Positions 7,010-27,574 of a stretch of DNA of 32,555 nucleotides are shown here, in pieces. The notes beneath the pieces are model-generated. The model saw only the letters and a program-made list of their open reading frames with translations. It did not search any database and was not told the DNA's origin. Positions within the stretch are counted from its first letter, which is position 1. Every line of letters begins with the position of its first letter. Both the position numbers and the translations under genes were made by a program. The DNA comes from an uncultured Bacteroidota bacterium (GTDB taxonomy: Bacteria > Bacteroidota > Bacteroidia > Flavobacteriales > Flavobacteriaceae): positions 1-32,555 of the forward strand of contig CACDPE010000013.1 of NCBI GenBank assembly GCA_902554655.1, written 5' to 3'.

Positions 7010-8064
7010 TTATTATATTTTTTTGAAAGCTCTATTAATATTTTTTGTTGATCTTTATTTAAACCATCAGCCGTAAAAATTGAAACTCCTGATGCACCAT
7101 TTTCTTTTGATATAACTATAGCTTTTTTTAAATCTTCAGGGTTTCTCAAAGCAGGAGCGTATAAACCAGAAATTACAGGAATATCAACATCCATAGTTCC
7201 CTGCTTAGTTGCAAAACCTATCCAATTAATATTTTCTCTATAAAAATTTTGATAAAGCATTGGATATACTTGATCCAGATTCCAATCATTCCAAGCTTGC
7301 CTTACCATTTGTCTAGACATTTCTGGAAATGGGAAAACTGCAGCTGTTACCTTTTTATTTTTTGAGTGTGATATTGCAATTATTTCATTTACCAATGAAG
7401 AAACAGCATTTAATCTAAATTGCCTCCACTCTGTTGATAATTCAGGGTTTTTAAAATCTATAGGGTCTTTATCAAAAATTTTCTCAAACTCTTTTCTAGC
7501 TATAGGATGATATCCAAAATCATACTCAGGTAATTCTTTGTCTTGAACTATGTTATATTTAGGCTGCAAATCAGCGCCTAAAATTACATCTGGAAATCTA
7601 ACATAATCTAAATGTACAGATTCAAGATCATCAACCTGCATAAGTCTTTTAGCATTGTTTATAATATGATTTCTAGCATCGGGATGAAAAGGTGAGAGCC
7701 ATTGATAATAATCTACATAAGCTCTATAGTCTAAGGAATTCTGACCATTTCTGTTAACAGCATACCAATCTGGATTTTTATTAGCTATAGTATCCCCAGG
7801 GCGATTTAATGTCCACATCCATCCATGGACCTTGATGTTTTTTTTCTTAGCTAATGGGATAATTTTTCTTAAAACATCAGGCGAAGCACTAACTAATATT
7901 TCAGAGATACCTAATGAATCATAATAATTTAATTTTTTTACCCATTTATCATTTTCAAATGAGTTCCCAGCTCCTGTCCATGTACTAAAGGTGAAATTCT
8001 TTTCATTGGAATTACATGATATTATTATTGAAAAAATAATTAAAACTAAATTGATTTTTTTCAT
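7006..8064 (-). CDS. GHL10-like glycosyl-hydrolase family lipoprotein
   Basis: 352 residues with a lipoprotein signal (IIISC, Cys17). The body looks like a TIM barrel of the glycosyl hydrolase-like 10 (YngK-like) family, with the characteristic HLDYVRFP at 151-158, an early HGWMWTLNRPGD strand-loop and the YPMLY segment near residue 270. Acidic residues in these motifs are the probable active-site groups. The start and stop each overlap neighbours by 4 bases (ATGA type), so it is co-translated with the CBM9-like gene before it and the sulfatase after it. Together these three lipoproteins look like a surface or periplasmic unit for a sulfated glycan. Activity is inferred from fold only. Confidence 0.8.
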   Translation of the reverse strand: MKKINLVLIIFSIIISCNSNEKNFTFSTWTGAGNSFENDKWVKKLNYYDSLGISEILVSASPDVLRKIIPLAKKKNIKVHGWMWTLNRPGDTIANKNPDWYAVNRNGQNSLDYRAYVDYYQWLSPFHPDARNHIINNAKRLMQVDDLESVHLDYVRFPDVILGADLQPKYNIVQDKELPEYDFGYHPIARKEFEKIFDKDPIDFKNPELSTEWRQFRLNAVSSLVNEIIAISHSKNKKVTAAVFPFPEMSRQMVRQAWNDWNLDQVYPMLYQNFYRENINWIGFATKQGTMDVDIPVISGLYAPALRNPEDLKKAIVISKENGASGVSIFTADGLNKDQQKILIELSKKYNK

Positions 8065-16826: not shown

Positions 16827-16886
16827 ATTATTCAAAGTTGCAGTACAACTCAATCTTCCAGTGAATTATGTTGATTTTGATTAATC

Positions 16887-16967
16887 AACTCTAGTTTAAA
16901 AGTATCTGTAACCTATTTAAGAGGATTTGAGTTAGGAGAGCTAAATAAAGAAGAGATGCCTATGGTT
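16887..16967 (+). pseudogene. relic of a tyrosine-recombinase C-terminus
   Basis: Reading the plus strand in the frame of the ATG at 16956 gives 27 residues that align without gaps to residues 320-346 of the island recombinase, 18 identical. Matched parts are SSL.VS.TYLRG, including the nucleophile Tyr, and the end E.MPMV. The original stop is lost (the codon after the final Val is TAC), and upstream the frame runs into TGA codons within 20 bases, so only the tail remains. It lies 60 bases from copy A of the tRNA flank and points rightward, opposite to the intact recombinase gene. Confidence 0.75.
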
Positions 16968-17179
16968 TACCACTCATTAATTTCTTTAAATAGATAGTCA
17001 ACTGAAAGGGAATACGCCTCTCTGAAATCATCCATTTCAACATCCTTGTCATTATAGGATATATTTTTTCTATGACAATAGTCCTCAAAAGATTCTTTAA
17101 TTAAATTATCTATTTTTTTCTGAAGTGAATAATTGTTTATCAAACAAATTTTGTAATGCTCTTTATCTAATCTTTTCAT
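16967..17179 (-). CDS. 70-residue protein, function unknown
   Basis: The ATG at 17179 gives 70 residues; a start 15 codons upstream is possible but less likely. The product is charged, with many Lys, Glu and Asp (MKRLDKEHYKICLINNYS at the start), predicted helical, with no signal or membrane segment. I do not recognise it. Its stop touches the recombinase relic tail-to-tail, the same arrangement as hsdS and the DUF91 gene with the intact recombinase. Two 14-bp tandem repeats lie upstream of its start. It may be a cargo gene of an older island. Confidence 0.5.
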   Translation of the reverse strand: MKRLDKEHYKICLINNYSLQKKIDNLIKESFEDYCHRKNISYNDKDVEMDDFREAYSLSVDYLFKEINEW

Positions 17180-17307: not shown

Positions 17308-18060
17308 CTATGGTTTAATGACATATTCAGGATAATCAGTAATAATCCCATCAACTCCCCATGATATAAGTTTACGTATGCGATTAGTATCATTAACTGT
17401 CCAAGTAAAAACTTTAAAACCATCAAGCTGGATTTTCTTGATAATATCATATGTCAACTTTTGATGACTTGGGCTAATAGCAAAAGCATTAAGTTCCTTA
17501 GCAATTGGAATCGCATCAATTGGTTTGTCATCTGTTAATACAGCAATTCTAAATTGATTTGTTAATTTTTTAAATTCTCTTAACTCATCCCAATCAAAAC
17601 TTGAAACATATAATTGATGGTTTTTCCAATTTCCATTTAATACTGATTTCTGCATGATATCTAAAACACCTTTTGCAGTATTTTTTCCTTTGAGTTCAAT
17701 ATTAAGACTAACCTTTCCATTAATTACACTTATTACTTCCTCAAGAGTTGGGATGGAATCAGTTTCCATTACTTTTAATTTTCTTAGTTCAGTTAGTGTT
17801 TTATTTTCGATATTCCCTTTTCCGTTAGTCAGTTTACTTAATTTTTTATCATGAAATACAACTATCTCACCTGTTAGACATCTAAACACATCAATTTCAA
17901 TAGCATCTACATCAAACATAAGTGCTTTTTTAATAGAGGTAATGGTATTTTCAGGGGCATGTCCCATAGCTCCTCTATGACCAATTACTTGTATATCTTG
18001 CGCATTTGCTAGGGATGATGTAGTTAAAATTATAAGAATTAAAAATCTTAGAGGTAACAT
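17308..18060 (-). CDS. glycerophosphodiester phosphodiesterase, exported
   Basis: 250 residues from the ATG at 18060. A TTG 7 codons upstream is possible, but the ATG gives a clean signal peptide (LRFLILIILTTSSLANA, then Q). The GDPD TIM-barrel motifs are complete: GHRGAMGHAPENT, the metal-binding pair in AIEIDVF, VVFHD, LNIELKG, and the C-terminal FTWTVND and GVDGIITDYP. It hydrolyses glycerophosphodiesters to glycerol 3-phosphate and an alcohol in the periplasm. Its last bases are AAACCATAG, as in hsdS. It lies between two copies of the tRNA flank, so it could be old island cargo, but it is also a common chromosomal gene. Confidence 0.92.
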   Translation of the reverse strand: MLPLRFLILIILTTSSLANAQDIQVIGHRGAMGHAPENTITSIKKALMFDVDAIEIDVFRCLTGEIVVFHDKKLSKLTNGKGNIENKTLTELRKLKVMETDSIPTLEEVISVINGKVSLNIELKGKNTAKGVLDIMQKSVLNGNWKNHQLYVSSFDWDELREFKKLTNQFRIAVLTDDKPIDAIPIAKELNAFAISPSHQKLTYDIIKKIQLDGFKVFTWTVNDTNRIRKLISWGVDGIITDYPEYVIKP

Positions 18061-18638: not shown

Positions 18639-18684
18639 AATTTTAGGTTAAATTAAGATTGAGGACTTCTGCAAGTTAGAGCAA

Positions 18685-18710
18685 AGAAAAAACCCTGCTA
18701 TTTGCAGGGC
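18685..18710 (-). terminator. terminator B, original chromosomal tRNA-Asn terminator
   Basis: On the minus strand a perfect 6-bp stem (18704-18709 with 18693-18698) and 5-base loop are followed by TTTTTT. It belongs to the displaced 3' side of the tRNA-Asn locus at the left end of the island and would now end transcripts leaving the island leftward. Confidence 0.85.
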
Positions 18711-18715
18711 TTTAA

Positions 18716-18791
18716 GAATATGTGATGTAGCGGTAAGCTTGCTCCCCCTCTTGGGCTCGAACCAAGGACCCTCTGATTAACAGTCAGATGC
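18716..18791 (-). repeat. left att copy (copy B) with 3' part of tRNA-Asn
   Basis: 76 bases identical to 27475-27550. Bases 18742-18791 equal the 3' two-thirds of tRNA-Asn (end of D stem, anticodon arm, T arm, acceptor 3' strand); 18716-18741 is the downstream flank. The D arm and 5' acceptor strand are absent, so it cannot form a tRNA. It is the displaced chromosomal end. Confidence 0.93.
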
Positions 18792-18903: not shown

Positions 18904-19179
18904 TTAGGTATTATTAGAGTCGTCTATTATTCTAACGTTAAATCGCTTCTGTGAATTCGAATTTTGCTCATCTTCAAACTTATATTTTGCTAAAATGTAA
19001 GGTAACGTAGATTTAACGAAATCGATTTTTTCACGATTGGTTAATTCGGCTACATTAATAGACTCTAAAGAATCGTCTAACAAGACATTTAACTTGTTTC
19101 TAAGCATATTACTTAATCGGTTTTTTCCTCTTCTAGAGGCCTTACCAGCTAATCGGCCGGTTACACTATTAAAAGGCAT
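18904..19179 (-). CDS. 91-residue protein of mobile-element type
   Basis: A small basic-then-acidic protein: the start MPFNSVTGRLAGKASRRGKN is rich in Gly, Arg and Lys, then helical segments (LRNKLNVLLDDSLESINVAELTN and REKIDFVKSTLPYILAKYK). The layout resembles small proteins common on flavobacterial integrative elements and prophages (basic Gly-Arg head, then a helical part with a REKIDF-like motif). I know no function; DNA binding, as in a terminase small subunit or excisionase, is possible. It is transcribed leftward, divergent from hsdR, across a 282-bp regulatory region. Confidence 0.65.
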   Translation of the reverse strand: MPFNSVTGRLAGKASRRGKNRLSNMLRNKLNVLLDDSLESINVAELTNREKIDFVKSTLPYILAKYKFEDEQNSNSQKRFNVRIIDDSNNT

Positions 19180-19461: not shown

Positions 19462-22400
19462 GTGAAATTTAACGAAGATTCAAGAGTAAAAATTCCTGCC
19501 ATAATTCACCTTACAAGATTAGGTTACGATTATATTTCGCTAAAGAATAATAACTGGGATCCTTCTACTAATATTTTTACAGATATTTTCAAATCAAGTA
19601 TTGGTAGAATCAATCCTGAATTATCCAACTTAGACTTAGATCGTTTAATAGATAAAATATCTTTAACGCTTGAAAATGAAGATTTGGGTAAAGCATTCTA
19701 TGATATGCTAACTTCAAAGACTGGTGTACAGCTAGTTGACTTTGAAAATATAGATAATAACGATTTTAAAGTTGTCACCGAATTGCCTTGCATTAAAGAC
19801 GATGAAGAGTTTAGACCTGATATTACGTTACTGATTAATGGAATGCCATTGGTTTTTATCGAAGTTAAAAAGCCGAATAATCTTGACGGAATTCAAGCTG
19901 AGCATAAACGTATAGCAAAACGATTTGAAAATAATAAATTCCGAAAGTTTATAAATATTACTCAATTAATGGTCTTCACCAACAATATGGAATATGATGA
20001 CGGATCTCTAGTGCCTTTACAAGGCGCTTTCTACTCTTCAACATCTTACAGTAAGCCTGTATTTAATTATTTCCGAGAGGAGGAAGATCTAAACATAGAC
20101 GATATTTTAAAGCCAGTAAATAAAGATGACGAAATTGAAATTCTAAAAGATACAAACCTTGTTTCGATTCTAAATCAGCCAGAATTTATTACAAATAAAC
20201 AGCCTACTAATCCAACAAACCGAATCAGTACTTCTCTGTTTAGTCGTGATCGTATTTCCTTTATTCTCCAATATGCTATTGCCTATGTCAAAGGATCAAA
20301 CGGCGTTCAAAAACACGTAATGCGCTACCCTCAAATATTTGCAACCAAAGCCATCGAAAGAAAAATTAACGATGGATTAAAAAGTGGTATAATATGGCAT
20401 ACACAAGGAAGTGGTAAAACAGCCTTGGCATATTATAATGTTAAATATTTAACAGATTATTTTCAAAGAAAAAATACAGTTCCAAAATTCTATTTTATAG
20501 TTGACCGTCTTGACCTCTTAGTCCAAGCAAGTAAAGAATTTACCTCTCGTGGGCTAATCGTTCACAAAATAAATTCAAGGGAAGAGTTTGCCAACGAAAT
20601 CAAATCTACAAATGTAATTCATAATGATTCCGGAGATCCAGAAATCACCGTTGTAAATATTCAGAAGTTTAAAGACGATCCTGATGTTGTAAAAAACACA
20701 GATTATAATTTAAATATCCAGAGAATATATTTTATGGATGAAGTTCATAGAAGCTATAATCCAAAAGGAAGTTTTCTTGCAAATTTGAAAGAGTCAGACG
20801 AAAGCGCAATAAAAATAGGTTTGACTGGAACCCCTCTTTTAGGAACGAACTATAATTCAAGATCTCTATTTGGAGACTATATTCATAAGTACTATTATAA
20901 TTCATCTATTGCTGATGGATACACACTAAGACTAATTAGAGAAGAAATTGAAACTTCATATAAACTCACTTTACAGGAGGCATTAAAAGAAATAAAAATT
21001 CTAGAAGGTAATACAGAGAAGAAAACTGTTTACTCACACGAAAAATTTGTTGAGCCAATGCTAAAATATATTGTCGACGATTTTGAACGTAGTCGAATTT
21101 CGATGAATGAAAATTCAATTGGTGGAATGGTAGTTTGCGACTCTGCTGATCAAGCTAAAAAAATGTACGAAATTTTTCAATCTACATATGCAAACCAAGC
21201 CGATTCGAATAATAAAGAATCGTACTCAGCAATCAAAGCAAATGAACGTAAAGTAAAGCGTGCTGCTGTAATTCTGTATGACGTCGGTACCAAAGAAGAA
21301 CGAAAAAAATGGGTTGAAGAATTTAAAGATGGTAAAATAGACCTGCTATTTGTTTACAATATGTTGCTTACCGGATTTGACTCGCCGAGGCTAAAAAAAC
21401 TATATATAGGAAGAGTTATTAAAGCACACAACTTATTACAAACTTTGACAAGAGTAAACAGAACCTTTAAAGATTTTCGTTACGGCTACGTAGTTGACTT
21501 TGCTGGAATTGAAGCTCAGTTCAAAAAAACCAGCCAAGACTATTTTAATGAACTTCAAAACGAACTTGGAGACGAGATTGAGTCTTATTCGAATTTATTT
21601 TTAACGGAGACAGAAATCGAAAAACAGATTAATGAAATAAAAGACGTGCTTTTCCATTTCGATACAAATAATGCAGAGAACTTTTCAAGACAAATCTCCG
21701 ACATTTCAGATCGTTCGAAAATGCTAGTTGTCACGAAAGCACTAAATGATGCGAAAAGTTTATATAACCTAATCCGGTTGTCTGGTAATTATGAAATGCT
21801 AGACAAACTAGATTTTCAAAAGTTATCAATACTTGCTCGAGAAGCTAACAATCATTTATCGTTAATCAACACTAAAGAAGCATTGGAAAGTAATATTGAT
21901 ACAACAAACCTATTAAATGTTGCGCTTGAAGATGTACTTTTCACTTTTACCAAAGTTGGCGAGGAAGAAATGATATTAGCTGATAAGTTAAGAAGTACTT
22001 TACAAAGAACTCGAGAGATGTTAGCTGGAAACTTTGACAAGAAGGACCCTATATTCATCTCCTTAAAAGAAGAATTGGAGCGATTGTTTAGAAAGAAAAA
22101 TCTCGCTGAAATCGATCCTGATGAAATGAAAGAAAATATTAAAGCTCTAGATGGGATATACAAAAAGGGAAAAGAGTTAGAGCGTAAGAACCAACTATTA
22201 AAAGCTAAGTATGAGAATGACGAAAAGTATTCAAGGTTGCATAAGCGCTTAATGGAAAAGGATCCATTAACAGACAGTGAGTCAAAACTATTCGAAGTAT
22301 TAACTGATCTAAAAAAAGCAATTGATGAGCAAGTTTTGAAAAATACAAGCCTGTTAAACAATGAGAAATATGCAGAAAAAATGATGATCAAAATAGTATT

Positions 22401-22512
22401 TGATGAACTACATAAAAAACACGAACTTGGATTAGATGCCGAGCGAACAAAACACATAAATGGTTTAATTGTAAAAGAATATTTAAACGAATACAACGGA
22501 ATAGCTGCATAA
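19462..22512 (+). CDS. hsdR: type I restriction enzyme, R subunit
   Basis: 1016 residues starting with GTG-type initiation at 19462 (an ATG is absent at the N-terminus; the next residues KFNEDSRVKIPAIIHLTRLGYDY are typical). The nuclease domain is N-terminal with Asp120 in RPDITLL and Glu134-x-Lys136 in IEVKK. The SF2 motor follows: Walker A GSGKT (316-320), DEVH (426-429), GLTGTP, and TRVNRTFKDFRYGYVVDF. A helical C-terminal part would contact the methylase. It translocates DNA and cuts unmodified DNA far from the site. About half of its Arg codons are CGN, unlike hsdS and the DUF91 gene. hsdM begins 1 base after its stop. Confidence 0.95.
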   Translation: MKFNEDSRVKIPAIIHLTRLGYDYISLKNNNWDPSTNIFTDIFKSSIGRINPELSNLDLDRLIDKISLTLENEDLGKAFYDMLTSKTGVQLVDFENIDNNDFKVVTELPCIKDDEEFRPDITLLINGMPLVFIEVKKPNNLDGIQAEHKRIAKRFENNKFRKFINITQLMVFTNNMEYDDGSLVPLQGAFYSSTSYSKPVFNYFREEEDLNIDDILKPVNKDDEIEILKDTNLVSILNQPEFITNKQPTNPTNRISTSLFSRDRISFILQYAIAYVKGSNGVQKHVMRYPQIFATKAIERKINDGLKSGIIWHTQGSGKTALAYYNVKYLTDYFQRKNTVPKFYFIVDRLDLLVQASKEFTSRGLIVHKINSREEFANEIKSTNVIHNDSGDPEITVVNIQKFKDDPDVVKNTDYNLNIQRIYFMDEVHRSYNPKGSFLANLKESDESAIKIGLTGTPLLGTNYNSRSLFGDYIHKYYYNSSIADGYTLRLIREEIETSYKLTLQEALKEIKILEGNTEKKTVYSHEKFVEPMLKYIVDDFERSRISMNENSIGGMVVCDSADQAKKMYEIFQSTYANQADSNNKESYSAIKANERKVKRAAVILYDVGTKEERKKWVEEFKDGKIDLLFVYNMLLTGFDSPRLKKLYIGRVIKAHNLLQTLTRVNRTFKDFRYGYVVDFAGIEAQFKKTSQDYFNELQNELGDEIESYSNLFLTETEIEKQINEIKDVLFHFDTNNAENFSRQISDISDRSKMLVVTKALNDAKSLYNLIRLSGNYEMLDKLDFQKLSILAREANNHLSLINTKEALESNIDTTNLLNVALEDVLFTFTKVGEEEMILADKLRSTLQRTREMLAGNFDKKDPIFISLKEELERLFRKKNLAEIDPDEMKENIKALDGIYKKGKELERKNQLLKAKYENDEKYSRLHKRLMEKDPLTDSESKLFEVLTDLKKAIDEQVLKNTSLLNNEKYAEKMMIKIVFDELHKKHELGLDAERTKHINGLIVKEYLNEYNGIAA

Positions 22513-22513
22513 T

Positions 22514-24136
22514 ATGAACACAACAATAGAATTTGAAAATAAAACTAAAAATCTTATCGATGACTTAAAAAGCGTCTGTGCGAATTATGGCCTTGGCAAT
22601 GACGGAAACGAATTTAAAATCATAACACAAGTATTCCTTTACAAGTTTATGAATGACAAGTTTGTGTACGAAATTAAACAGCTCGACTCCAATTTGATGA
22701 CAACCGATGACATAGAAGGTGCAATAGCATCTATGAACTCAAATGAATACGATTTATTAAACTTACAAATAGACGAAAACACCGCGGTTATTAAGCCTGA
22801 GTATTTTATCTCATCATTATTTCAAAGGCAAAATGAGGCAAATTTTGATCAAATATTTGATAACGCATTATTGGGAATCGCAAAAGACAACAGCGATATA
22901 TTTTCAGTTATAACTGATGGAGGTGAAAAGATCGTCTTGTTTGAAAATATTAGTAAGTATGTTACTGATAACCGTGATGCTTTCTGTAAGGCTCTTGTAA
23001 ATAAAATAGTGAACTTTAGTTTCGAAAAAATATTTAATGAAAAGTTTGACTTCTTTTCAACGATTTTCGAATATTTAATTAAAGACTATAACACAAATAG
23101 TGGAGGTAAATACGCCGAATATTTTACACCTCACGCTGTATCAAAAATTATGGCCCGATGTTTAGTAAAGGGCGAGGTTCAAAATGTAAGTTGTTACGAT
23201 CCATCTGCAGGTTCTGGAACACTATTAATGAATTTAGCGCATCAAATTGGAGAAGATAAGTGTACGATCTATTCGCAAGATATCTCTCAAAAGTCATCTA
23301 ACCTATTGCGACTAAATCTTATCCTAAACAATTTGGTTCATTCGATCCCAAATATCGTAAAAGGAAATACGATTAAGGATCCGTATCACAAAGAAAATGG
23401 ACAGCTCCGAAAGTTTGACTTTATCGTGAGTAACCCACCCTTTAAGCTTGATTTTTCGGATTATAGAGACGACTTAGATTCAAAGGAAAATAATGAAAGA
23501 TTCTTTGCTGGTATTCCGAAAATCCCAAATAAGAAAAAAGAATCAATGGCAATATATTTTATGTTTATTCAGCATATTATGTTCACTCTAAAACCTAAAG
23601 GAAAAGCAGCCATTGTTGTACCTACAGGATTCATAACCGCTCAGTCTGGAATTGGAAAAAAAATCAGACAGAAATTGGTGGAAGAAAAAATGTTAGCTGG
23701 AGTTGTTACAATGCCGAGCAATATCTTCGCAACAACGGGGACGAATGTTTCTGTTTTGTTTATCGATAAAGAAAATAACGAAGACGTCGTATTAATTGAT
23801 GCCTCTAATCTTGGAGAAACTATCAAAGAGGATGGAAATCAAAAAACAGTTTTAACGCACGAGGAAGAGGAGCATATCATTAAAACATTTACTGCGAAAG
23901 AAGTAGTTGAAGATTTTTCAGTCGTGGTTTCATTTGACGAACTTAAAGCTAAAAATTATTCAATGAGTGCTGGTCAATACTTTGAGATAAAAATTGTATA
24001 TACTGACATAACCGAAGATCAATTCCAAAAAAAATTAGAATCCTATGAAAATAATTTGAATGAATTGTTTGAAAATTCAAAAAAATTAAACAATGAAATC
24101 AGAAATAATTTAAAAAATATTAAGAGTGGATTTTAA
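22514..24136 (+). CDS. hsdM: type I restriction-modification, M subunit (N6-adenine methylase)
   Basis: 540 residues. An N-terminal HsdM_N helical region (about 1-160) is followed by the methylase domain with SAM-binding DPSAGSGT (229-236) and catalytic NPPF (307-310). The C-terminus (about 500-540) is a helical, Asn- and Lys-rich segment that would pack against HsdS. With HsdS it methylates adenine in the recognition site; with HsdR it restricts. It starts 1 base after hsdR and its last 11 bases overlap hsdS, so the three are co-translated. All catalytic motifs are intact. Confidence 0.95.
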   Translation: MNTTIEFENKTKNLIDDLKSVCANYGLGNDGNEFKIITQVFLYKFMNDKFVYEIKQLDSNLMTTDDIEGAIASMNSNEYDLLNLQIDENTAVIKPEYFISSLFQRQNEANFDQIFDNALLGIAKDNSDIFSVITDGGEKIVLFENISKYVTDNRDAFCKALVNKIVNFSFEKIFNEKFDFFSTIFEYLIKDYNTNSGGKYAEYFTPHAVSKIMARCLVKGEVQNVSCYDPSAGSGTLLMNLAHQIGEDKCTIYSQDISQKSSNLLRLNLILNNLVHSIPNIVKGNTIKDPYHKENGQLRKFDFIVSNPPFKLDFSDYRDDLDSKENNERFFAGIPKIPNKKKESMAIYFMFIQHIMFTLKPKGKAAIVVPTGFITAQSGIGKKIRQKLVEEKMLAGVVTMPSNIFATTGTNVSVLFIDKENNEDVVLIDASNLGETIKEDGNQKTVLTHEEEEHIIKTFTAKEVVEDFSVVVSFDELKAKNYSMSAGQYFEIKIVYTDITEDQFQKKLESYENNLNELFENSKKLNNEIRNNLKNIKSGF

Positions 24137-25367
24137 TAGGAGAAAAATAAGAGATTTGGCAAAAAATGTTACTGACGGAGAGCACGGGTCAGTCATAGAT
24201 GACCCTATTGGTGAATATTTTCTTTTAAGCAATAAAAATATCAGAAATGGTAAAATAATATTTGATGAAAATGACAGAAAAATTTCAAAAACATCATTTG
24301 AAAAAATAAATAAAAGAACAAAATTAGAATCTGAAGATTTAGTTATTTCAACGGTTGGAAGTATTGGCAGAACAGCTATTATCAAAGAGGAAGAAATCAA
24401 ATTCGATTTTCAAAGAAGCGTTGGAATTATTAAAGCTGATAAGAATGAAGTATTACCAAAATATTTACATTATTACCTTCAGCTTAGTTATGTGCAAAAA
24501 CGACTTAAATCATTATCAAAAGGTGCCGTTCAAAAGTGCCTCTTTATCTCTGATCTAAACGATATTGACGTTGACCTTCCTTGTGATTTTAATTATCAAA
24601 AAAGTATAGTTAAAATCCTTTCTGATTTAGATAAAAAAATAGATCTAAATAACAAGATTAATTCTGAGCTAGAATCGATGGCAAAATTAATTTATGACTA
24701 TTGGTTTGTTCAGTTTGATTTTCCTGACGAAAATGGGATGCCGTATAAATCCTCGGGAGGGAAAATGGTATATAATGAAGAGCTAAAAAGAGAAATCCCT
24801 GAAGGATGGGAGGTAAAACCACTAACCGATGAAATGGATTTACAATATGGTTATCCGTTTAGCACTAAATTATTTAATAATGAAGGTAAAGGTATTCCTG
24901 TTATAAGAATAAGAGATATCTTAGAATGTACTATTTCAAATTATTCTACTGAATTTGTTGACAATAAATATCTTTTAAATAAAGGAGATGTTGTTATTGG
25001 AATGGACGGAAATTTCCATATTAATTACTGGAAAAGGAAGGGCTGTTATTTAAATCAAAGAAGTTTAAGAATACGTTCCAATGAAAATTCTATCTCAGAG
25101 ATTCAATCGAGATATTCTATAGAGCCTTACATTAAGGCAAGAGAAAAAAATGTATCAAGAACGACTGTGGCTCATTTGAGCGCAAGAGATATAAACGATT
25201 TGAAGTTGTTAAAAGCAAATAATAGTGTTCAAAAAAAGGTAAATAAATTATTCAGATCAATACTGAAAAAAATAGTGGCTAACGATGAACAGAATCAACA
25301 ACTTTCAGAATTTAGAGACTGGCTATTACCAATGCTAATGAATGGACAGGTTACAGTAAAACCATAG
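24126..25367 (+). CDS. hsdS: type I restriction-modification, S (specificity) subunit
   Basis: 413 residues from a GTG inside the hsdM end. Two target-recognition domains are present: TRD1 about 1-155 and TRD2 about 205-365, each followed by a conserved helix (IVKILSDLDKKIDLNNKINSELE and VNKLFRSILKKIVANDEQNQQLSEF). It has the bipartite form of normal type I S subunits and defines the DNA site. Nearly all Arg codons are AGA/AGG (only about two CGN), in contrast to hsdR and hsdM, so it may have a different source. Its stop is inside the 34-bp repeat shared with the recombinase 3' end. Confidence 0.93.
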   Translation: MDFNRRKIRDLAKNVTDGEHGSVIDDPIGEYFLLSNKNIRNGKIIFDENDRKISKTSFEKINKRTKLESEDLVISTVGSIGRTAIIKEEEIKFDFQRSVGIIKADKNEVLPKYLHYYLQLSYVQKRLKSLSKGAVQKCLFISDLNDIDVDLPCDFNYQKSIVKILSDLDKKIDLNNKINSELESMAKLIYDYWFVQFDFPDENGMPYKSSGGKMVYNEELKREIPEGWEVKPLTDEMDLQYGYPFSTKLFNNEGKGIPVIRIRDILECTISNYSTEFVDNKYLLNKGDVVIGMDGNFHINYWKRKGCYLNQRSLRIRSNENSISEIQSRYSIEPYIKAREKNVSRTTVAHLSARDINDLKLLKANNSVQKKVNKLFRSILKKIVANDEQNQQLSEFRDWLLPMLMNGQVTVKP

Positions 25368-25392
25368 GCATATCATCTTCTTTTAATTCTGT
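25359..25392. repeat. 34-bp direct repeat, first copy (recombinase 3'-end relic)
   Basis: 33 of 34 bases match 26342-26375, the last codons of the recombinase gene. On the minus strand this copy still reads TELKEDDMPMV, so it is a leftover of a recombinase C-terminus. It contains the last two codons and stop of hsdS. Confidence 0.88.
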
Positions 25393-25417
25393 TAGATAAT
25401 TTCTTTAACTTTAAAAT

Positions 25418-26338
25418 ATGAAGTATAACAGAATTATGCCCGGCGCTAAAAGCGTTTATTTTGAAGATTGTATAAAGGGAGAGTTTATTGGAGTTGATTT
25501 TGGAATTAATGAGGATATATCAGCATATTTATCAGATAATCCAGCTCCTTTCAAGGAAAAGTATAGACCTGTTTTCTTAAAAAACAGACCTGATAAATCA
25601 TTGGTTGCTGCAGGGCTTGCTTGTGGTGCAATATGGACTGTTTGTCATAGCCTAAAAAAAGGGGATATTGTTTTATGTCCAGATGGTAGTGGAGATTATT
25701 ATATAGGTGAAATCGATTCAAATTATTATTATGTAGCAGGAGAAATTCTTCCTCACAGAAGAAAAGTAAAATGGAAGAAAAGACCTATAAGAAGAAGTGA
25801 TATGTCTGAATCTCTGAGCAATTCAAGTGGCTCAATATTAACGACCTGTGACTTAACAAAATATAATGATGAAATTCAAAATCTTATTCTTGGAGACAAC
25901 GCTTTGCCGATAATATCAAATGATTCAACCATTGAAAATGCTTCAGAATTTGCTTTAGAAAGACATCTTGAAGATTTTTTAGTTAAAAATTGGACTAAAA
26001 CTGTTCTTGGTAAGAACTATGACATTTATGAAATAGATGGGGAAATGGTTGGTCAGCAATTTCCATCTGATACGGGTCCAATTGATATTTTAGCTTTAAG
26101 TAAGGATAAAAAAACTTTTTTAGTTGTTGAGCTGAAAAAAGGACGAGTGAGTGATAGTGTAGTTGGTCAAATACAAAGATATATGGGCTTTGTAAAACAG
26201 GACTTAGCGGAAGAGCATCAAAATGTAAAGGGAGTTATAATTGGTTTTGAGGATGATATTAAAATTCATAGAGCCCTTTCTGTTACAACTAACATTGATT
26301 TTTATAAGTATAAAGTTGATTTTAACTTGTATAAATAA
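25418..26338 (+). CDS. PD-(D/E)XK nuclease with NucS/DUF91-like C-terminal domain
   Basis: 306 residues. The C-terminal domain (about 185-300) holds a PD-(D/E)XK site, Asp223 in GPIDILALS and Glu238-x-Lys240 in VVELKKGR, followed by GQIQRYMGF, as in NucS-like endonucleases (DUF91). The N-terminal 150 residues (GEFIGVDFGINEDISAY, AAGLACGAIWTVCHSLKKGD, VLCPDGSGDYYIGEI) form a different domain that may read DNA or a modified base, similar to PUA-like N-termini of some modification-dependent enzymes. It is likely a second defence nuclease. It lies between two 34-bp repeats, 50 bases after hsdS, and its Arg codons are AGA-type like hsdS. Function is inferred. Confidence 0.8.
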   Translation: MKYNRIMPGAKSVYFEDCIKGEFIGVDFGINEDISAYLSDNPAPFKEKYRPVFLKNRPDKSLVAAGLACGAIWTVCHSLKKGDIVLCPDGSGDYYIGEIDSNYYYVAGEILPHRRKVKWKKRPIRRSDMSESLSNSSGSILTTCDLTKYNDEIQNLILGDNALPIISNDSTIENASEFALERHLEDFLVKNWTKTVLGKNYDIYEIDGEMVGQQFPSDTGPIDILALSKDKKTFLVVELKKGRVSDSVVGQIQRYMGFVKQDLAEEHQNVKGVIIGFEDDIKIHRALSVTTNIDFYKYKVDFNLYK

Positions 26339-26339
26339 C

Positions 26340-27380
26340 CTAAACCATAGGCATATCTTCTTCTTTTAATTCTGTGACTTCCAATCCACGTAAGTAGGTT
26401 AAACTCACTTGTAAACTAGAGTGTCCCATAGCTCTTTGAAGCTTTGTTAATGAGCCTGTTCGCTTAAAGATTTCTATCGCTCCAGAGTGTCTAAAAGAGT
26501 ATAGGGTTATATGTTTATCAATGTTATACTTTATTTTAAAACGTCTAAATAGAGTCTTGAAATAGTCGTCATTTCTAGATTTAATTCCTCCAAACAAATA
26601 ATGATTATCTGGGCCTTTAATTAACTTATCTCTTATATAATTAGGAACAGGAACTATTCTATTACGCTTAGATTTGACTCTAAAACCTGACAAACGAATT
26701 AAACTAAGATCTTCATTGAAATCTTGCCAAGTTAAAAGTCGAATTTCTTTATGAGGTCTCAATAAGCAACCATAGGTAAACAAGCAACACAAATAAAGAT
26801 CTAAATTATAGTTTCTTACTTTTTCTAATAATTCTCTGATATTTTTAATTGGTTTATGAAGAATTTCATTTTGTCTTCTTGCTCTCAATGAGCAATGACC
26901 AGTTTTAAAATTATTTTCTCTCAGAGTATTAGTTAAGACATTTAAGTGTCTTCTAACAGTATTGAAGCTTGTATTATTTTGATATTTTAGAATTATTGAA
27001 TTAACAAACTCTGTTGTGATTTCACCATTTGTTTCTAATTGTTTTCGTAAAAAATCAGAAAATTTTTTGAGCGATTCGACATATTTTTTTGATAACGGTT
27101 CACTCAATTTGATATCTATTATTTTATCAAATAATTCAAGTTTATTAAGACAGGGATCGAACGAATAATTGTTACTAATTAAATACCTATATATAATATC
27201 CGCTAGTTCCTCCGCTTTTTTTCTCCTAATATTTTTCGGGTATTTGTTAGGGTAAAAATTTAAACGTATTAATCTTGCATTAGTTAGCCTGATTCGTTTT
27301 TGATTTAGCGTAAAATCAATATAATACTTTGAATCCTTACGTTTAGAAACCTTCGGGTACGTTAGTGTTTTATTTGGCAT
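26340..27380 (-). CDS. tyrosine recombinase (integrase) of the island
   Basis: 346 residues. The N-terminal part is a SAM-like core-binding region (about 75-165). The catalytic domain holds Arg208 in LLRPHKEIRL, the box II motif YSFRHSGA (Tyr in place of the usual first His, common in Bacteroidota), MGHSS and the nucleophile Tyr329 in TYLRG. It should catalyse insertion and excision at tRNA-Asn, whose end lies 120 bases from its start. It is transcribed leftward, away from the tRNA, and its stop is 2 bases from that of the DUF91 gene. Its 3' end is the source of the 34-bp repeat. Confidence 0.92.
   Translation of the reverse strand: MPNKTLTYPKVSKRKDSKYYIDFTLNQKRIRLTNARLIRLNFYPNKYPKNIRRKKAEELADIIYRYLISNNYSFDPCLNKLELFDKIIDIKLSEPLSKKYVESLKKFSDFLRKQLETNGEITTEFVNSIILKYQNNTSFNTVRRHLNVLTNTLRENNFKTGHCSLRARRQNEILHKPIKNIRELLEKVRNYNLDLYLCCLFTYGCLLRPHKEIRLLTWQDFNEDLSLIRLSGFRVKSKRNRIVPVPNYIRDKLIKGPDNHYLFGGIKSRNDDYFKTLFRRFKIKYNIDKHITLYSFRHSGAIEIFKRTGSLTKLQRAMGHSSLQVSLTYLRGLEVTELKEEDMPMV
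26342..26375. repeat. 34-bp direct repeat, second copy (in recombinase gene)
   Basis: Partner of 25359-25392 with one mismatch, 983 bp apart. It encodes TELKEEDMPMV at the end of the recombinase on the minus strand and begins next to the stop of the DUF91 nuclease gene. Confidence 0.88.
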
Positions 27381-27438: not shown

Positions 27439-27471
27439 TAAAAAAAGAAACCTCCGATTTCTCGAAGGTTT
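27439..27471 (-). terminator. terminator C, now serving tRNA-Asn, supplied by the island
   Basis: On the minus strand arms AAACCTTCGA and TCGGAGGTTT (27462-27471 with 27448-27457, one G-U pair) with a GAAA loop, then a T-run. It differs in sequence from terminators A and B, as expected if the island brought its own terminator when it rebuilt the tRNA 3' end. Confidence 0.85.
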
Positions 27472-27474
27472 AGT

Positions 27475-27550
27475 GAATATGTGATGTAGCGGTAAGCTTG
27501 CTCCCCCTCTTGGGCTCGAACCAAGGACCCTCTGATTAACAGTCAGATGC
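27475..27550 (-). repeat. right att copy (copy C) inside tRNA-Asn
   Basis: Identical over 76 bases to 18716-18791. It covers the tRNA from the end of the D stem to its 3' end and 26 bases beyond. The crossover probably lies in or near the anticodon arm, whose stem is symmetric (TCTGA/TCAGA). Confidence 0.93.
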
Positions 27551-27574
27551 TCTAACCAACTGAGCTAAGGAGGA
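27501..27574 (-). tRNA. tRNA-Asn (GTT)
   Basis: 74 nucleotides form a full cloverleaf on the minus strand: acceptor TCCTCCT/AGGGGGA (one T-G pair), D stem GCTC/GAGC, anticodon stem TCTGA/TCAGA with loop CTGTTAA, T stem CTTGG/CCAAG with loop TTCGAGC, discriminator G. The anticodon GTT reads Asn. CCA is not encoded. It is the island's insertion site and its 3' part is supplied by the island repeat. Confidence 0.97.

Follow-up and report, generated by a model that had tools for sequence, protein, structure and literature searches.

Cassettes between copies of a recombinase tail suggest integron-like gene addition in marine flavobacteria

We analyzed a tyrosine recombinase gene and the nuclease gene beside it in a 32,555-nucleotide stretch of DNA (hereafter the window) from contig CACDPE010000013.1 of an uncultured member of the Flavobacteriaceae (assembly GCA_902554655.1). 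Two copies of the recombinase gene's 3' end flank the nuclease gene, and small cassettes that stand head to tail between such recombinase-tail copies recur in marine flavobacteria, in what looks like an undescribed, integron-like form of gene addition. From these sequence comparisons, the nuclease gene is probably one cassette of an integron-like system that docks at the 3' end of the recombinase's own gene. At the level of sequence, the comparison shows the arrays, their orientation, the ending of genes within the sites, the docking of the same gene families in different genomes and in different order, and the variable ends of the recombinases.

In the mechanism that we propose, a dedicated tyrosine recombinase would dock cassettes at the end of its own gene, which reads ...ELKEEDMPM plus a stop codon (DNA ...GAAGAAGATATGCCTAT^GGTTTAG). 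A cassette would often comprise one or two genes that face the recombinase. At the 3' end of its gene it would bring the short right part of the site, which often provides the stop codon, and at the 5' end a left arm that originated from a recombinase tail. Insertion of the cassette behind the recombinase would occur by exchange at GATATGCCTAT^GG, and the enzyme would keep a functional C terminus with altered last residues; the earlier cassette would be shifted one place outward, and repeated insertions would build arrays. The recombinase itself would catalyze the exchange, cassettes would circularize, and loss of recombinase bodies would create new left arms. Whole islands, made up of a recombinase and its array, could also occupy tRNA genes.

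A nuclease gene bracketed by two copies of the recombinase gene end

A repeat search of the window found a 34-nt direct repeat at 25359-25392 and 26342-26375, identical at 33 of 34 positions (97%) and with a spacing of 983 bp, as an earlier note on this DNA had stated. The earlier note had also read the second copy as the true 3' end of the recombinase open reading frame (ORF) and the first as holding the hsdS stop codon and, on the minus strand, the recombinase C terminus. All three readings were borne out: copy 2 ends the recombinase ORF (Table 1), its coding left arm extending to about 26405, and copy 1 contains the hsdS TAG at 25365-25367 and reads ACAGAATTAAAAGAAGATGATATGCCTATGGTTTTACTGTAA, that is, TELKEDDMPMVLL followed by a stop. 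In the reversed window the best score with the site profile was -8.4 bits, and in all loci reversed it was 0.9, with a profile trained on the same family of sites that it scores.

The product of the nuclease gene has its best match in the PADLOC model PDC-S02 (4e-143), with a weaker match to Pfam NucS_C (2e-7, above cutoff). The label DUF91, given to it before, is therefore acceptable, if loose. Nuclease matches were found in 3 of 397 genomes of the family, the window's own included. One relative, in genome G321 (locus L048, 1259-2206), is 63% identical, with one internal stop marked in the match; the closest of the five scored sites of an array is about 4.6 kb away, and a left-arm-like stretch, seen by eye and unscored, is located near its 3' end.

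Table 1. Positions of the features discussed, counted from the first nucleotide of the window
Feature	Position	Strand	Basis
Isolated recombinase C-terminal fragment (residues 318-346, 62%) holding the third site	16881..16967	+	profile and similarity
tRNA-3' direct repeat, left copy, at the far end of the island	18683..18791	-	86% between copies
hsdR	19462..22512	+	ORF call, Pfam, PADLOC
hsdM	22514..24136	+	ORF call, Pfam, PADLOC
hsdS, stop inside copy 1	24126..25367	+	ORF call, Pfam, PADLOC
Site copy 1, supplies the hsdS stop codon	25357..25389	-	47.6 bits
Putative nuclease cassette, exchange point to exchange point, 983 bp	25364..26346	+	pooled pairs and repeat spacing
Cargo: NucS-like/PDC-S02 nuclease, 306 aa, convergent with the recombinase	25418..26338	+	
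Site copy 2, GAATTAAAAGAAGAAGATATGCCTATGGTTTAG, last codons and stop of the recombinase	26340..26372	-	55.6 bits
Tyrosine recombinase, 346 aa; 3' end is the putative docking (attI-like) site	26340..27380	-	Pfam Phage_integrase 3e-12
tRNA-3' direct repeat, right copy; the pair brackets the 8.8-kb island	27442..27550	-	
Intact tRNA-Asn(GTT), where the island apparently integrated	27500..27574	-	

Sites recur in arrays with convergent genes

At a threshold of 17 bits or more, the profile found 185 site copies (182 distinct) in 685,986 bases of fetched loci, and the same loci reversed held no site at 8 bits or more. Loci duplicated by larger stretches were excluded by hand from the counts of sites, pairs, and clusters, with 3 of the 185 sites still counted twice. 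The pair analysis covered loci of at least 4,500 bases (and L043) and pairs with no intervening site. Consecutive sites on the same strand were within 5 kb of each other in 88 of 90 pairs, with a median spacing of 934 bp. In 73 of 87 intervals the longest ORF is on the strand opposite the recombinase, and the nearest antisense ORF stops inside the site in 36 of the 83 intervals that have one. ORFs of at least 50 aa number one in 44 of the 88 intervals, two in 25, three to seven in 18, and none in 1.

Taken alone, the window would agree with a single local duplication that left the nuclease gene between two recombinase ends, with no wider system behind it. These arrays, and the solo sites found in many genomes, contradict that explanation, which we consider extremely unlikely.

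The arrays carry varied cargo: 94 Pfam families, some of them overlapping, were matched over 127 ORFs. Defence models hit few of the cargo genes, namely the window nuclease and one with a PD-T4-2_B match; the window nuclease is therefore one example among many. In the array of L047 (sites at 7577, 8991, and 9908), ∼120 nt across and after sites 9908 and 8991 are about 90% alike, and the genes beyond them differ. Folded, attC-like hairpins were looked for and rejected: 40 solo sites above 45 bits gave mean z values of +0.49 and +0.52 on the two strands relative to dinucleotide shuffles.

Recombinase tails without bodies recur among relatives

In the 23 genomes of the window's genus (its own included), a search with the recombinase at E 0.001 matched 5, of which 2 have a whole gene (the window's own and G016) and 3 have short pieces. 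A named genome collection gave five recombinase loci, one with a whole gene (L008) and four with pieces of the last 17-37 residues. These tail pieces start at varying points and finish at the last residue of the recombinase, the exception being an internal piece in G008:C11 (residues 288-311).

A degenerate ELKEEDMPM pattern with at most one mismatch occurs in 32 of 397 family genomes, a count that includes chance-like hits in G398, G180, and G146 (the reversed-pattern control gave 1 hit). Hits are often clustered on one strand, for example four within a 4.7-kb contig of G411, and they occur in 18 of 22 genomes of one genus and 12 of 19 of another, with chance-like hits in G437 and single ones in G419, G426, G435, and G439 included. 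With at most two mismatches at the level of the order, 10 of 395 genomes have the pattern, among them members of other families with several sites (G483 and G722) and two chance-like hits (G751 and G802); the reversed control again gave 1 hit. Viral contigs contain 0 exact pattern matches, phage records gave no match at 1e-5, and 1 of 72,556 plasmid records has a remote protein match (26.5% identity over 58%). A phage- or plasmid-borne element was rejected on these searches.

In the solo sites (n = 66), the right edge falls sharply at the recombinase stop codon; the left edge is graded. Left-arm variation falls mostly at third codon positions (entropy 0.31/0.18/0.67), and, outside GAT-ATG-CC, synonymous sites of the tail are no more conserved than those in the remainder of the gene; DNA-level constraint across the whole tail was thus rejected apart from GATATGCC. 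Because of this third-position variation and ordinary synonymous conservation, we read the left arms as probable descendants of real recombinase ends that lost their bodies, with DNA constraint at the exchange core only. The sharp and graded edges, the third-position variation, the lack of DNA constraint over most of the tail, and the existence of longer partial recombinases would all follow from accretion and decay, in which units each bring a full recombinase and stack at the recombinase end, and the bodies are later deleted while the tails are trapped by overlap with the stop of the convergent gene.

Cassettes are found with different neighbors in different genomes

Among the matches listed, G428 and G422 share a cassette that carries a 100-aa gene; the two versions are 94% identical across the full stretch between site edges and have differing neighbors, and the same cassette is present in G345, of another genus, at 95-97%. 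Among the same matches, the site-proximal genes of two cassettes are in swapped order in G026 and G428, and the remaining interval sequence differs. Twelve gene clusters are docked convergently beside a site in at least two genomes, and 10 further clusters occur in at least two genomes with docked members in one genome only, counts that exclude short search loci. In addition, a cassette with a left arm of only ∼20 nt is the same in G422 and G345 up to the site and has different right neighbors in each (L066/L055), which suggests that recombinase-less cassettes still recombine. This short-armed cassette argues against accretion and decay as the explanation of the arrays, as does the finding that 69 of the 88 intervals contain just one or two ORFs, and accretion and decay alone leave the shuffled order unexplained. 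We judge that process unlikely as an account of the system as a whole and likely as the origin of the left arms.

Where the exchange lies

Seventeen site pairs sharing the right flank alone and 13 sharing the left flank alone were compared with unrelated pairs; these flank-sharing pairs are few and mutually dependent. Relative to a same-lineage background, right-sharing pairs have mismatches at the background rate up to +25 (1.19 at +24/25) and then at 0.18 of it at +26/27, and left-sharing pairs are below background to +25 and at background from +26. With an arm-length-matched background, right-sharing pairs have 6 mismatches versus 7.0 expected at +24/25 and 2 versus 11.7 at +26/27. From these alignments, most exchange likely occurs at GCCTAT^GG.

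Variable recombinase ends agree with exchange at this point. Eighteen recombinase C termini diverge after DMP (one reads DML), continuing as MV, MI, MM, ILL, TIL, NIL, IV, VV, LL, MIL, or a longer run, in a survey that required the motif and missed recombinases without it. If exchange is at GCCTAT^GG, the window recombinase would have kept its C terminus to ...EDMP and received its last codons and stop from the cassette. The proposal in the earlier note that the nuclease arrived with a new recombinase 3' end would then apply to those last codons and the stop, not to the whole 3' end. Copy 1 would be the nuclease cassette's own left arm. This revision as a whole is less secure, as the per-pair model described below left the position unfixed.

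The left arm and leader of the window cassette (25364-25414) are 92% identical over 51 bp to those in G016 (L111, 12534-12584), and the window nuclease gene and the 687-aa gene of G016 look unlike despite this similarity. The common left arm and leader could possibly be a shared promoter or a second exchange boundary.

Relation of the sites to the recombinase, and points that weigh against its role

Residues R208, K236, R297, H320, and Y329, which we take to be catalytic, are invariant in the P0001 and L008 recombinases. Four recombinases score 28.4, 24.7, 23.8, and 20.7 bits with the IntI model TIGR02249 (cutoff 265), and P0001 scores 39.0, 24.3, and 53.9 bits with the XerC, XerD, and XerA models (cutoffs 335.15, 329.6, and 220, respectively). 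An AlphaFold model of the recombinase was discarded (mean pLDDT 43.9). Solo sites are closer to the recombinase of their own genome (0.837 vs. 0.760, 0 of 5000 shuffles; 13 genomes, 51 sites) in a test that used a hand-made locus-to-genome map and in which the window's genome was outside the 13. This likeness could also be produced by shared ancestry.

Several observations weigh against a recombinase that docks cassettes at a fixed point. A recombinase match at 1e-10 is present in only 24 of the 47 genomes searched, and some of these matches are fragments; incomplete assemblies may explain part of the recombinase-less genomes. No scored site was found at the 3' end of two recombinase loci, G042 and G451:C2:865355 (the latter has an internal stop), and several other recombinase loci have only one site nearby. 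Synonymous constraint is limited to GAT-ATG-CC, so most of the left arm is unproven as a DNA signal. Mismatches in right-sharing pairs are already partly reduced (0.63-0.88) between -3 and +25, and a per-pair breakpoint model with 30 informative pairs favors breakpoints spread over the site. A separate breakpoint model, whose fixed point is the best common breakpoint over both sets and in which left-sharing pairs alone do not fix the position, shows no gain for a fixed point over spread ones. The preference for spread breakpoints and the partial drop in mismatches make homologous recombination a formal possibility.

RecA-type homologous recombination among dispersed tail repeats could shuffle the genes with the recombinase uninvolved in the arrays, and it would be consistent with a spread-breakpoint model whose fit equals or exceeds that of a fixed point and with the roughly half of the searched genomes that have no detected recombinase. 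However, mismatches in right-sharing pairs stay near background to +25 and are ∼0.17 of it at +26, and left-sharing pairs have the reverse pattern; the repeat in common is in many cases just about 20-35 bp long; the sites match the recombinase lineage of their own genome; and the regular convergent architecture would be unexpected. We therefore regard this explanation as quite unlikely, and docking by the recombinase as the preferred one.

The same locus in relatives and the layout of the island

The earlier note had proposed a search of relatives for variation at the joint between the repeat copies, and such variation was found. At the rseP/tRNA-Asn locus, G016, of the same genus, has a 57%-identical recombinase, and its two tail copies enclose a different gene, of 687 aa. 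G009 and G008 each carry a single tail copy with one or two small genes, and both lack a recombinase body and the nuclease at that place. The nuclease gene looks like an insert at the recombinase 3' end, and cargo addition at that end, as the note had suggested, is supported. The rest of its interpretation, as a whole partly supported, fared less evenly: its picture of a single event stands as an insertion at the recombinase end and gives way to a recurrent array system in Flavobacteriales, and its ancestral state with hsdS tail to tail with a recombinase is plausible, with no genome seen that shows it.

The flanks of the G009 locus are 97% identical to the window, and the two sequences begin to diverge near the tRNA remnant, about 140 bp ahead of the site. 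A clean one-cassette difference between G009 and the window was rejected: the island as a whole differs from the tRNA remnant on, so the pair isolates no single insertion. Window positions 16830-16969, compared with L006, have visibly lower similarity to G009 than the 97%-identical left flank, and G009 may have a different recombinase remnant at the equivalent position.

A third, weaker site copy, overlooked in the earlier note, scores 29.2 bits at 16938(+) in the window. It lies in the isolated C-terminal fragment of Table 1, beside another tRNA remnant, and this fragment appears to be a relic of an older island at the same tRNA. CCTATGGTTTA at 17308-17318 overlaps the stop of a glycerophosphodiester phosphodiesterase gene; it was rejected as a fourth site, with a score beneath the profile threshold that makes it merely a lead, and is perhaps a decayed site.

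The type I restriction system of the island spans 19462-25367. A repeat of the tRNA 3' end is present at both ends of the island, and the recombinase lies beside the tRNA gene. The island of L111 resembles that of the window, but its recombinase sits at the opposite end. In L123, L124, L125, and L128, solo tail sites are oriented toward the 3' end of a tRNA gene that lies about 0.6-1.4 kb away, which suggests that they are remnants of tRNA-targeted islands. A 91-aa ORF at 18904-19179, near the far end of the window island, has no Pfam, PADLOC, or PHROGs match at the thresholds used.

Discussion

Among bacterial platforms for the collection of single genes, integrons are the textbook case, and in them attI lies outside the integrase coding region. 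The site described here, by contrast, consists of the last codons of the recombinase. As outlined in one account, an integron comprises IntI, attI, and attC cassettes, and CALIN arrays are also known (PMC8618304). The flavobacterial system resembles that outline in its tyrosine recombinase, tandem small cassettes, site at the gene 3' end, diverse cargo, and recombinase-less arrays (PMC8618304). Its arrays are tandem, and their cassettes are small and generally single-ORF (44 of 88 intervals, with two ORFs in 25). Unlike in integrons, the recombinase scores far under the IntI cutoff, its own 3' coding end is the docking site, the genes point toward the recombinase, and the site is a conserved sequence without folding.

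Other known systems share single traits with this one. Acinetobacter pdif modules, as far as the available accounts describe them, likewise consist of genes set between short sites that a tyrosine recombinase uses; those sites are for XerC/XerD and on plasmids, whereas here a separate recombinase under the Xer cutoffs is chromosomal and has the site inside its own gene. As in tRNA-targeted islands, a 109-bp repeat of the tRNA-Asn 3' end flanks the window island on both sides and the recombinase lies beside the tRNA, but the tail arrays constitute a second, internal level of gene addition, and several recombinase loci (e.g. L114, L118, and L120) have no tRNA in the stretch examined. Archaeal SSV-type integrases have attP inside int, and integration splits the gene. 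The recombination site here is also inside the recombinase gene, but exchange would take place at its very end and spare the enzyme. A literature search of titles and abstract beginnings, covering no preprints and few subscription papers, found no description of such a system.

We lean toward a broader reading, in which a capture platform unrelated to integrons is spread across marine Flavobacteriales. The 3' coding end of the recombinase would be its universal docking site, insertion would rewrite the last residues and never break the enzyme, and lost recombinase bodies would leave working sites behind. If this is true, it would be a second gene-collecting platform, arisen from a different recombinase and simpler in its principle, with the end of the enzyme's own gene as the landing pad, and it could offer a tool for short-site recombination. 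Tails of the ELKEEDMP type would be a searchable signature for many unannotated mobile genes, and the system would explain in part how the small-genome flavobacteria of the ocean gain and lose accessory genes.

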